From a virus, in IMG/VR virus record IMGVR_UViG_3300014501_000068, positions 1 through 25,236 of that record: a DNA stretch of 25,236 nt; one strand, 5' to 3'. Both the position numbers and the translations under genes were made by a program. The notes beneath the pieces were generated by a model. The model worked only from the letters and a program-made list of their open reading frames with translations, was not told the origin of the DNA and ran no database searches. Positions 5,079-19,655 of this stretch are shown in pieces (positions within the stretch are counted from its first letter, which is position 1; every line of letters starts with the position of its first letter).

Positions 5079-5097
5079 AGGATCGCTGTGGCGCTCA

Positions 5098-16719: not shown

Positions 16720-17115
16720 CTACATCCGGACGGCCTCGCTCGTGCAGCCCGTGGGACAGGCTCGCACGTCGCGTCGTGTCTCGATCTTCTCGCCGCAGGT
16801 AGAGCAGCGGGCGACCGGTCCTTTGGACCTCAGCCTACTCGCGCCCGTGCGATGCGGACTCGTCCACTTGCCCTTGCCGTGAACGACTGGGGGCGGAGCG
16901 GCCACGTTGAGCGGGTCTGCGGCGCAGCCGTAGTTCTTGTGCCAGAGCAAGTGCTCGGTCTGCTGCGGGGAGCCGCGCTCGACCCGTTGCCGCCAACCGC
17001 ACTTCGTGCAGACCAAGGTCGCAAAGCGCCGACGCTTTATGCGCGAACCCGGCCGCTGTACGCGTGGCTGGGGGTTTGCAGTCGGTCGAACCTGTGGTAG
17101 GCTGTGCTCGATCAT
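16720..17115 (-). CDS. Two-zinc-ribbon protein (131 aa)
   Basis: ATG at 17115; the frame is open to 17256, but the added residues have chance-like composition. Finger 1 is LVCTKCGWRQRV (Cys 36 and 39) with His 55, His 59 and Cys 64 (LLWHKNYGCA). Finger 2 is ARCSTCGEK (Cys 104 and 107) with ACPTGC (Cys 120 and 124). Two independent Cys sets in one frame are unlikely by chance. It is the first gene of the leftward block, facing the early promoter at 17271. DNA or protein binding is likely; the specific role is unknown. Confidence 0.62.
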   Translation of the reverse strand: MIEHSLPQVRPTANPQPRVQRPGSRIKRRRFATLVCTKCGWRQRVERGSPQQTEHLLWHKNYGCAADPLNVAAPPPVVHGKGKWTSPHRTGASRLRSKGPVARCSTCGEKIETRRDVRACPTGCTSEAVRM

Positions 17116-17260
17116 CGCACGGTCAGCATACACCTCGGCGTCAAGAGCCCCTCCGCTCTCGTCCCGGGGTGTTTTGCTGCGCCTGGGCACGAATAGCAAG
17201 CGCGTCCCGGCGGCCTTGAAGGAGTGAGGGCTGGCGTGGCGATCTTTACAAAACACACGG

Positions 17261-17305
17261 TGCTTACGACTTGACTCTGCTCTTGCTTACGAGTATGCTT
17301 ACGAC
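17261..17305. repeat. Three 10-bp direct repeats, operator-like
   Basis: TGCTTACGAC at 17261-17270, TGCTTACGAG at 17284-17293 and TGCTTACGAC at 17296-17305 lie on the plus strand in the same direction. The first abuts the -35 box, the second fills the spacer and the third overlaps the last bases of the -10 box and runs up to the start codon. Placement over a promoter is typical of repressor or activator binding sites. The adjacent HTH gene is the obvious candidate binder. Confidence 0.7.
17271..17299 (+). promoter_or_regulatory. Early promoter, apparently leaderless
   Basis: TTGACT at 17271-17276, a 17-base spacer and TATGCT at 17294-17299 form a near-consensus housekeeping promoter. The next start codon, ATG at 17306, is only 6 bases after the -10 box, so the predicted transcript would begin at or within a base or two of the ATG, with no room for a ribosome-binding site. 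It is embedded in the three direct repeats. Confidence 0.75.
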
Positions 17306-17584
17306 ATGCAGACTACCGCTTCAGTGACCCAAGAGTTTAGCCACGCAGCCTCGATGCGGAACCCGCACGACGTGATCCGTGACCTGGCGAAGCGTGGCGC
17401 TACCGTGAAGCAACTTGCGAAGGCATCGTGCTTGAGCGAGGCGTTCGTGCGGGCAATCATCGACGCCGACGACATTGTTAAGCAGGTCGGACTCACCGTG
17501 ACTATCCGCAACGGCGGCCTCCGCGCCCTGCTCGCTGCTTACGGCACGCGCAACGAAACAGCCCGTCTCTCAGGTCAGCCCTAG
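17306..17584 (+). CDS. Helix-turn-helix protein, first early gene (92 aa)
   Basis: ATG at 17306, directly after the promoter. Residues about 22-55 form a helix-turn-helix (VIRDLAKRGATVKQLAKASC, then LSEAFVRAIIDAD), followed by a short basic and hydrophobic region (LTVTIRNGGLRALLAAYG). An internal Met at 17 could be the start if the transcript begins later. Position right after repeats that overlap its own promoter suggests an autoregulating early regulator. It is small for a CI-type repressor, and no family is recognised beyond HTH. It ends in TAG, immediately followed by the next ATG. Confidence 0.75.
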   Translation: MQTTASVTQEFSHAASMRNPHDVIRDLAKRGATVKQLAKASCLSEAFVRAIIDADDIVKQVGLTVTIRNGGLRALLAAYGTRNETARLSGQP

Positions 17585-17758
17585 ATGCACTCCAACGCCA
17601 CAGCGAACCGGATTGCCCGCAAAAAGGCGATCAAAGAGGGTCGCTGCACCCGCTGCCGCTCGAATGCGGCTGCTCCAGCTCGAACGACCTGCGACCCGTG
17701 CCGTGCGTATATCGCGGCCTGGGTTCAGGCAAAGCGAGCAAACGCTAAGCCTGCCTAA
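17585..17758 (+). CDS. Cys4 zinc-knuckle microprotein (57 aa)
   Basis: ATG at 17585 follows the previous stop without a gap. A basic helix (ANRIARKKAIKEGR) precedes CTRC (Cys 21 and 24) and CDPC (Cys 36 and 39), then a helix (AYIAAWVQAKRANA). This matches a widespread phage zinc-knuckle family with a basic flank, and it is similar to the 76-aa protein encoded at 19222. It may bind nucleic acid; no specific role is known. It is followed by 67 bases with no gene apart from a frame that overlaps it. Confidence 0.75.
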   Translation: MHSNATANRIARKKAIKEGRCTRCRSNAAAPARTTCDPCRAYIAAWVQAKRANAKPA

Positions 17759-18590: not shown

Positions 18591-18772
18591 GCGAGCAAGC
18601 GACTGTCTGCGCCGGTTGCGCTCAGGGTCCGTGGAACGGAACAGGCCGCTGCACTTGCGGCCACGATCACGGCGTGCATCACTCGTACGAGAACGACGAC
18701 GGTCACTGCACGGGCAAGGACTGCAACTGCCGTCGCTTCATCGACCGCGACCCTTCAGTGACGTTCCGCTGA
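18587..18772 (+). CDS. Cys/His-rich zinc microprotein (61 aa)
   Basis: ATG at 18587 in an ATGA overlap with a strong CAGGAGGA site upstream. Seven Cys and several His occur in CAGC, CTCGHDHGVHH and HCTGKDCNCRRF. The CTCGH...H...C...CxC...F pattern is known from small actinobacterial and phage zinc proteins. It probably binds one or two zinc ions. Function is unknown. Confidence 0.75.
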   Translation: MSEQATVCAGCAQGPWNGTGRCTCGHDHGVHHSYENDDGHCTGKDCNCRRFIDRDPSVTFR

Positions 18773-18830
18773 AGGAGAGCGCGCGGGGTAGCGCGTAGCA
18801 CAAGCCACGAGACTCGGGTCGGCCGGGAAT

Positions 18831-18879
18831 CATGGAGCGCAGGGGCCTCGACGCAAGTCGGGGCTTCTTCGTATCCATG
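18831..18879 (+). other. Nested hairpin with GCAA tetraloop, possible RNA element
   Basis: An outer stem CATGGA/TCCATG (18831-18836 with 18874-18879) encloses an inner 8-bp stem GCCTCGAC/GTCGGGGC (one G-T pair) capped by a GNRA loop GCAA (18845-18864). It lies in a gene-poor stretch of about 450 bases (18773-19221) whose only other contents are a weak 52-aa ORF and the promoter at 19187. It could be part of a small RNA or a processing/stability element. It was found by eye. Confidence 0.35.
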
Positions 18880-18919
18880 AAGGAGAGCGATCGCCGAGCG
18901 TGGTAGCGACCGAGCATCC

Positions 18920-19078
18920 ATGCTTCTCCAAGACGCCACGATGGCTGCCCGTGTCTTGAACGTCAAGCGCTCCCAACAGAGCGATGCGCTGACCGTTCGT
19001 GTTCGTTGCGAAGTTGTCGACGCTCTCCCCGCGTCGTACCCCACTGCGGCCTTGCGCCGCCCCGGCAACATTCTTTAA
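18920..19078 (+). CDS. Small hypothetical protein (52 aa), tentative
   Basis: ATG at 18920 (an alternative at 18941) to TAA at 19076-19078. The translation has plausible protein-like composition (ARVLNVKRSQQSDALTVRVR, then CEVVDALPASYP), suggesting two beta strands. It has no clear ribosome-binding site and stands apart from the overlapping chain. No family is recognised. It is the best frame in this otherwise empty stretch. Confidence 0.38.
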   Translation: MLLQDATMAARVLNVKRSQQSDALTVRVRCEVVDALPASYPTAALRRPGNIL

Positions 19079-19186
19079 AAACAGAGCACCCGCTACTCCG
19101 GGCCGGGCCAGGGGTCATGGCGCGGGCGCCCAGGTTCGCAAGTACGTCCTCCTTCACCGAAAACCTCTCGTGTCGCTAACAAGGTA

Positions 19187-19215
19187 TTGCGCGTGACGCT
19201 ACGTTATGCTAAAGT
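19187..19215 (+). promoter_or_regulatory. Early promoter, apparently leaderless
   Basis: TTGCGC at 19187-19192, a 17-base spacer and TAAAGT at 19210-19215, followed after 6 bases by the ATG at 19222. The -10 to start distance is the same as at the 17271 promoter, so the message would have no leader. The short inverted repeat CTAC/GTAG flanks the -10 region. Confidence 0.6.
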
Positions 19216-19221
19216 AGTGCT

Positions 19222-19452
19222 ATGCCAGACGTAGCCACGCGACAGCGCGAGTACCGAGCACGCAAGAAGGCCGCTGGCCTGTGCGTGCACCCAGGGTGCC
19301 ATCGCAAGGCTCGCCCCAACCGTACGCGCTGCCGGACGTGCCTCAAAGAGGCTGCTGCCCGCTCGCGTCTTGCCCGTGAAGGAGCGCGTGGCCGGCAAGG
19401 CGTAGGGCGAGCGTGGCCTCCAACGAAACTCCGAGGAGCCGTCATCGAATAG
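19222..19452 (+). CDS. Cys4 zinc-knuckle protein (76 aa)
   Basis: ATG at 19222 right after a promoter. A basic helix (TRQREYRARKKAAGL) precedes CVHPGC (Cys 21 and 26), then CRTC (Cys 37 and 40) and a helix (LKEAAARSRLAREG). The layout and residues parallel the 57-aa protein at 17585, so the two look like paralogs. The C-terminal third is basic and probably flexible. Nucleic-acid binding is plausible. The TAG stop overlaps the first ATCGAATA repeat of the next promoter. Confidence 0.75.
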   Translation: MPDVATRQREYRARKKAAGLCVHPGCHRKARPNRTRCRTCLKEAAARSRLAREGARGRQGVGRAWPPTKLRGAVIE

Positions 19453-19498
19453 GTGGCGGCTTCTTGCATTCTACTCGCTAATCGAATATAATCGAATA
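19444..19498. repeat. Three ATCGAATA direct repeats around a promoter
   Basis: ATCGAATA occurs at 19444-19451, 19481-19488 and 19491-19498. The last two are 10 bases apart, about one helical turn, and lie across the -10 box of the promoter at 19464-19492. The first is upstream of the -35 box and includes the stop of the preceding gene. The sequence differs from the TGCTTACGA repeats at 17261, so a different binder is implied. Confidence 0.6.
19464..19492 (+). promoter_or_regulatory. Strong early promoter, apparently leaderless
   Basis: TTGCAT at 19464-19469, a 17-base spacer and a consensus TATAAT at 19487-19492. The GTG start at 19500 follows 7 bases later, so the transcript should start at or next to the codon. 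This is the best sigma-70-type promoter in the window and heads the long gene chain that runs to the right edge. Confidence 0.78.
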
Positions 19499-19499
19499 C

Positions 19500-19655
19500 G
19501 TGGAGACACAACCGAAGAAGCGCCGCTGTCGCGAGTGTGGTTCGTGGTTCGCTCCGGTCGCCGGCAAGAGAGCCCGTCTCTCGTGCTCGGATCGTTGCAA
19601 AAACCGCTGGAACTACCGTGAGCGGCGTCTCCAGCGTGAAGGAGCGAGCGGATGA
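19500..19655 (+). CDS. Zinc-knuckle microprotein, CxxC...CSDRC type (51 aa)
   Basis: GTG at 19500, just after the TATAAT promoter. Cys 10 and 13 (RRCRECGSWFAP) and Cys 29 and 33 (LSCSDRCKNRWNYRERR) form the treble-clef-like pattern CxxC...CSxxCxxxxxxRRR seen in many small bacterial and phage proteins. The basic helix after the last Cys suggests DNA or RNA contact. As the first gene of the main early transcript it may be made in large amounts. The stop overlaps the next ATG (ATGA). Confidence 0.72.
   Translation: METQPKKRRCRECGSWFAPVAGKRARLSCSDRCKNRWNYRERRLQREGASG

Follow-up and report, generated by a model that had tools for sequence, protein, structure and literature searches.

In lambdoid phages the operators are palindromic and common to CI and Cro, whereas the repeats that we describe here, at an early promoter of an uncultivated phage, are direct. 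Direct repeats are bound by ArdK of plasmid R388, an HTH repressor of solved structure; gaps of 3–6 bp separate the repeats in its subfamily, and throughout the KorA/ArdK family the sequence and position of the operators vary while the layout persists (PMC9723621). In phage 186, the regulator Apl binds cooperatively at early promoters to direct repeats spaced by a helix turn, and its sites comprise five to seven copies at a spacing of 10–11 bp, located between face-to-face promoters and at att (PMC7498355). The immunity repressors of mycobacteriophages use asymmetric sites, the stoperators, which occur dispersed throughout the genome and to which the repressor binds as a monomer with two domains (PMC9283540). 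With respect to the transcript start, the cI and cro mRNAs of PY54 begin with AUG, as mapped by RACE, and for these genes and for lambda cI the promoter lies immediately upstream of the regulator's start codon, yielding a leaderless message (PMC4488713).

The locus studied here lies in a linear virus record of 25,236 bp, a genome fragment that was analyzed as a whole and is referred to as the window. With the ArdK system it would share a small HTH regulator and direct repeats at the regulator's own type of promoter, and the 3 bp between the second and third phage copies compare with the 3–6 bp gaps of the ArdK family, whereas ArdK operators consist of two repeats at the −35 element and the phage site of three that reach the −10 element (PMC9723621). 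A sequence relationship between ArdK and the 92-aa protein encoded next to the phage repeats was not detected, and KorA/ArdK was not among the Pfam, NCBIfam or PDB sequence matches of this protein. Traits in common with Apl of 186 and Cox of P2 are an early phage regulator, direct repeats spaced by roughly one helix turn and, as predicted for our phage, repression; unlike the Apl sites, the phage site has spacings of 23 and 12 bp and a single promoter, and att and a tyrosine integrase were not seen. A phage regulator on asymmetric sites would also be shared with the stoperator systems, whereas the site described here is confined to one promoter, where all three copies found in the 25-kb record, itself a genome fragment, are located. 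By analogy, the element may work like an early autoregulator in the style of Cro, ArdK or Apl whose start is leaderless, as that of PY54 cro is (PMC4488713); the group it would join is the leaderless promoter class, and a membership of KorA/ArdK or Apl/Cox would be conjectural. An "unusual binding mode" had been proposed in a sequence-only reading of this DNA, and this is apt in the sense of uncommon but not of unprecedented, as ArdK (PMC9723621), Apl (PMC7498355) and the stoperator repressors (PMC9283540) illustrate. We regard the element as neat, not as a control element without precedent.

Direct repeats over the early promoter

The elements of the site are as follows.

17261..17269, plus strand: direct repeat copy 1, TGCTTACGA, at −45 to −37 from the ATG, with one base between it and the −35 hexamer
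17271..17276, plus strand: −35 hexamer TTGACT, from the promoter scan
17284..17292, plus strand: direct repeat copy 2, an exact match inside the 17-nt spacer
17294..17299, plus strand: −10 hexamer TATGCT, ending 6 nt before ATG 17306
17296..17304, plus strand: direct repeat copy 3, an exact match over the −10 hexamer and up to the predicted +1
17285..17298, no strand assigned: imperfect 14-bp dyad GCTTAC-GA-GTATGC through copies 2 and 3, an alternative operator reading
17306..17584, plus strand: gene of a small 92-aa protein with a predicted HTH; it opens the early block, and the protein is likely to regulate this promoter itself

The TTGACT-N17-TATGCT promoter that the sequence-only reading had placed 6 nt before the ATG was confirmed at these positions; it matches the consensus in 9/12 bases and is the sole promoter-like site between 16000 and 19000, where shuffled sequences gave 0.3. 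Three direct copies of a repeat of 10 bp had also been claimed, and their number and common direction hold, but the exact repeat is strictly a 9-mer, the tenth base being common to copies 1 and 3 only (TGCTTACGAC) while the middle copy reads TGCTTACGAG. The copies start at −45, −22 and −10 relative to the ATG. Copies 2 and 3 form an imperfect 12-bp tandem unit and are about one helix turn apart, and copy 1 lies about two turns further. As had been stated for the window, no other exact copy was found on either strand of the record, and near-copies with up to two mismatches are no more frequent than expected by chance (53 against 55), among them a fourth copy-like stretch, TGCTTACGG, at 17536 within the 92-aa gene.

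The direct repeats overlap the promoter elements beyond chance: three non-overlapping copies of a 9-mer within 60 bp occur once in the window, compared with a mean of 0.015 per window in shuffled sequences, and a 10-mer repeat in the 70-bp upstream stretch was obtained in 0/2000 shuffles. A coding origin of the repeats (in-frame AYEYAYD) was considered and rejected, as the frame has no start codon between the stop at 17225 and the repeats, and its GC3 is 0.46, compared with 0.74 in the gene. Exact inverted repeats ahead of 17306 do not exceed 4 nt, a length that every shuffle reaches, and the dyad is symmetric at 10/14 positions, which is often expected by chance in such a search. With a dyad running through copies 2 and 3, a purely direct-repeat binding, as read from the sequence, is not certain.

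Probable leaderless starts in the window and in related records

Relatives were reached via the Sak4-like and portal proteins, and their records were then retrieved. The window and five of these records (G001, G003, G004, G005 and G007) were scanned for promoter sites at distances of 0–30 nt before 5477 ATG or GTG starts of open reading frames of at least 45 aa, with at least 8/12 promoter matches and a TAnnnT −10 element being required. In these six records, the distance from the −10 element to the start was 6 nt at 8 sites and 7 nt at 2, with about one site at each of the other distances. In the window, many genes have a Shine–Dalgarno motif of 4 to 7 nt ahead of their start, whereas 17306, 19222 and 19500 have none. 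In Deinococcus radiodurans, leaderless −10 motifs likewise lie 6–7 bp upstream of the open reading frames; these promoters are mostly without a −35 element, whereas the phage site has a −35 element and repeats (PMC12340547). Because of the 6-nt peak across the records, the match with the Deinococcus distance and the absence of a Shine–Dalgarno motif, the start at 17306 is very probably leaderless, although the exact 5' end is one that we infer. The leaderless promoter, which had already been postulated, is thus well supported, and, as judged from the DNA, two of the three defining features of this promoter class are present, namely a −10 hexamer that ends 5–8 nt before the start codon and has a spaced −35 element, and the lack of a Shine–Dalgarno motif.

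A second promoter covered by repeats at 19442–19500 had been overlooked in the sequence-only reading and emerged from an unbiased repeat scan, which gave two adjoining copies of TAATCGAATA, starting at 19479 and 19489, and, at 19442, TCATCGAATA. Together with a third, weaker site, the features are:

19442..19451, plus strand: outer copy TCATCGAATA of the second site, from the repeat scan
19464..19492, plus strand: second leaderless promoter, TTGCAT-17-TATAAT, 7 nt before GTG 19500
19479..19498, plus strand: two copies of TAATCGAATA, a perfect 10-bp tandem that contains the −10 hexamer TATAAT
19500..19655, plus strand: gene of a 51-aa Cys-rich protein resembling the NinG N-terminus (NinG E 0.00032, below the Pfam cut-off)
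19187..19221, plus strand: third, weaker leaderless-like promoter, TTGCGC-17-TAAAGT, 6 nt before ATG 19222

GTG 19500 opens a long run of tightly packed early genes, the second early operon, and the repeat length of this site was matched by 1/2000 shuffles; the promoter of ATG 19222 carries no significant repeats. In seven records, a direct repeat of at least 10 bases within 70 nt upstream was found at 3/11 leaderless-like starts versus 72/5838 others (Fisher p 0.0003), a test that is rough and only a guide, as the starts are not independent and the counts include nested and spurious reading frames. Leaderless-like starts without significant repeats over them were found in G003, and therefore repeats are not a general feature of such promoters.

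The 92-aa protein, its surroundings and related phages

The HTH assignment of the 92-aa protein stems from weak matches below curated cut-offs (HTH_29, E 0.0087; the repressor family phrog_769, E 0.0086); the gene itself is coding-like, with a GC3 of 0.74. A single-sequence AlphaFold model contains helices at residues 20–29, 34–41 and 45–61, i.e., a tri-helix at 20–61 with the presumed recognition helix at about 45–55, and has a mean pLDDT of 70 overall and of 80–87 over residues 11–50. Solved HTH proteins align to this model at Z 5–6; ArdK (7bca/7bcb, Z 6.1, rmsd 1.9) and KorA are among them, at 1.9–2.0 Å over 46 residues, but LuxR-type domains, sigma region 4 and other HTH folds match equally well. 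The model thus supports a tri-helical DNA-binding domain, but nothing finer. Homologues were found neither by pattern search and tblastn in viral_contigs or genome_contigs, nor by tblastn in phages and plasmids (best E 0.8), nor among nine related records.

To the left of about 17,256, the genes for the portal, a terminase-like protein and the capsid run leftward, and to the right of 17,306 the early block with a Sak4-like annealing protein runs rightward. A search with the capsid protein gave no relatives in bacterial genomes, and Rfam and tRNA scans of the window gave no matches. The early block further encodes small, basic, Cys-rich proteins with HNH/NinG-like zinc knuckles (17585–17758, 19222–19452 and 19500–19655), and in this otherwise packed region about 450 bp at 18773–19221 are without a convincing gene. 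There, TGAAGGAGAGCG at 18770 and 18878 flanks a long GC-rich hairpin (about 18830–18880, fold z-score −2.4), possibly a terminator or structured RNA.

Among the relatives, G005 (contig of L069), whose portal is 53% identical, has a TTGACG-17-TACAAT-6-ATG arrangement before a gene whose 83-aa product is of the ribbon-helix-helix type (TacA1 at 21.5 bits, just above the cut-off of 21; NikA-like, E 5.5e-6). Two copies of CGTGAAACGT, at −45 and −28, lie over this promoter together with an incomplete one at −17, and an outer repeat at −45 that abuts the −35 element is common to G005 and the phage of the window. In G004 (contig of L066), TTGACA-18-TAGACT-6-ATG leads into the gene of a small protein (77 aa) whose PHROG matches are repressor-like but weak; two operator-like repeats overlie this promoter, one inverted (8 bp) and one direct (7 bp). 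A divergent XRE-like gene starts at 5084, as found by reading the sequence, with a serine-recombinase domain further on. The region L077 5011–5084 of G004 has the appearance of a CI/Cro-like divergent module, with the leaderless 77-aa gene, GATCGTGTC/GACACGATAC as inverted sites and, close by, a serine integrase, and at least one portal-related phage, G004, is thus probably temperate.

Other repeats came to light in the same records. The start of the G004 contig (L077 1–280) is a long 12-bp tandem array of GGTCGCGTCCCT and variants, and G003 has two GTCCGTTT clusters (L074 18064–18202) with spacings of 11 and 22–23 bp that are iteron- or operator-like. A single TGCTTACG in G001 was not promoter-like on reading. 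The spaced pair TGCTTACGA-N1-25-TGCTTACGA has 53 matches in viral_contigs, near chance by a rough estimate, and these were rejected, as, on reading, none of their flanks had the promoter layout described here and many resemble coding repeats; the tandem pair TGCTTACGANTATGCTTACGA has no match in other viral contigs.

We tentatively considered, and find it doubtful, that the lineage keeps one promoter geometry while regulator fold and operator sequence are swapped as a cassette. The conserved geometry would consist of the leaderless start, the outer repeat at −45 against the −35 element, and inner repeats that lie within the spacer and over the −10 element, and the exchanged regulators could be an HTH protein in the window, a ribbon-helix-helix protein in G005 and another small regulator in G004. 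The material for a fixed geometry with exchanged regulators is that of two phages and the second site; if the idea is true, regulatory specificity changes fast on a fixed scaffold.

Possible functions of the repeat-covered promoter

We consider it probable that the site is a leaderless early promoter on which the product of its first gene acts as a repressor via direct-repeat operators, with binding, the exact +1 and the sign of the regulation being what we infer. A transcript from this sigma-70 type promoter would begin at ATG 17306 or within one to two bases, and the three direct repeats would be operator sites of the 92-aa HTH protein itself. Once enough of the protein has accumulated, the sites beside the −35 element, in the spacer and over −10/+1 would be occupied, probably cooperatively, and the occupied sites would exclude RNA polymerase, so that early expression limits itself. 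Self-regulation by the 92-aa protein, with its predicted binding, is plausible on the basis of the sequence, and this reading is strengthened by the relative G005, which has the same layout before a DNA-binding gene. What speaks against autorepression is that the HTH matches are below cut-offs and that the gene following the same design at 19500 is not an evident regulator; the failure to find homologues of the 92-aa protein and the single-sequence basis of its model weigh on the same side.

The weak HTH matches and the gene at 19500 would fit an arrangement in which the repeats are operators for a different protein, be it a host repressor or a further early regulator of the phage, with the 92-aa protein acting elsewhere: as the gene at 19500 is not an evident regulator, the ligand of the repeats need not be the downstream product. 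However, since the repeat sequences of the two sites differ, a single regulator common to 17261 and 19442–19500 is unlikely, and the adjacency of a gene for a DNA-binding protein recurs in G004 and G005, so that we regard operators for another protein as rather unlikely. The sequence-only reading had called the locus a "switch", and its position at the divergence of two gene blocks, together with the apparent module and serine integrase of the relative G004, would be in line with a lysis-lysogeny switch of the CI/Cro type in which the 92-aa protein is Cro-like or CI-like. This designation was not supported, as a consensus scan of the minus strand at 17000–17420 revealed no leftward promoter, even with relaxed thresholds, and a partner repressor and an integrase are not visible in the fragment. 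The divergent open reading frame 16720–17256 has only weak zinc-ribbon-like matches, a tyrosine integrase (PF00589) was not found in ten records, i.e., the window and the nine related ones, with the control being positive in 14 genomes, and a resolvase-type recombinase was not found in the window record, a fragment. A CI/Cro-type switch is therefore improbable.

It is also conceivable that the repeats bind nothing and are by-products of short tandem duplication in an AT-rich promoter, as slippage generates tandem units like the imperfect one of copies 2 and 3 and the perfect one of TAATCGAATA at 19479. Both sites, however, have a detached third copy (17261 and 19442), and in two phages the outer copy begins at −45, next to the −35 element, which makes such an origin very improbable. 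Iterons of a replication origin could be imagined on account of the 23-bp spacing of direct repeats next to an early promoter, but just three short copies are present, of which one abuts and one overlaps promoter hexamers, and no adjacent initiator gene was recognized; this explanation can practically be dismissed.

The autorepressed leaderless early promoter that we favor would offer a compact case, open to direct testing, in which a small regulator of a phage probably recognizes direct repeats; only a minority of prokaryotic HTH proteins bind DNA in this way. The 6-nt distance between the −10 element and the start can be used to locate more early promoters and regulators in such phages. Uncultivated relatives of this phage probably use leaderless early promoters as well, with operators that change in sequence while the geometry stays.
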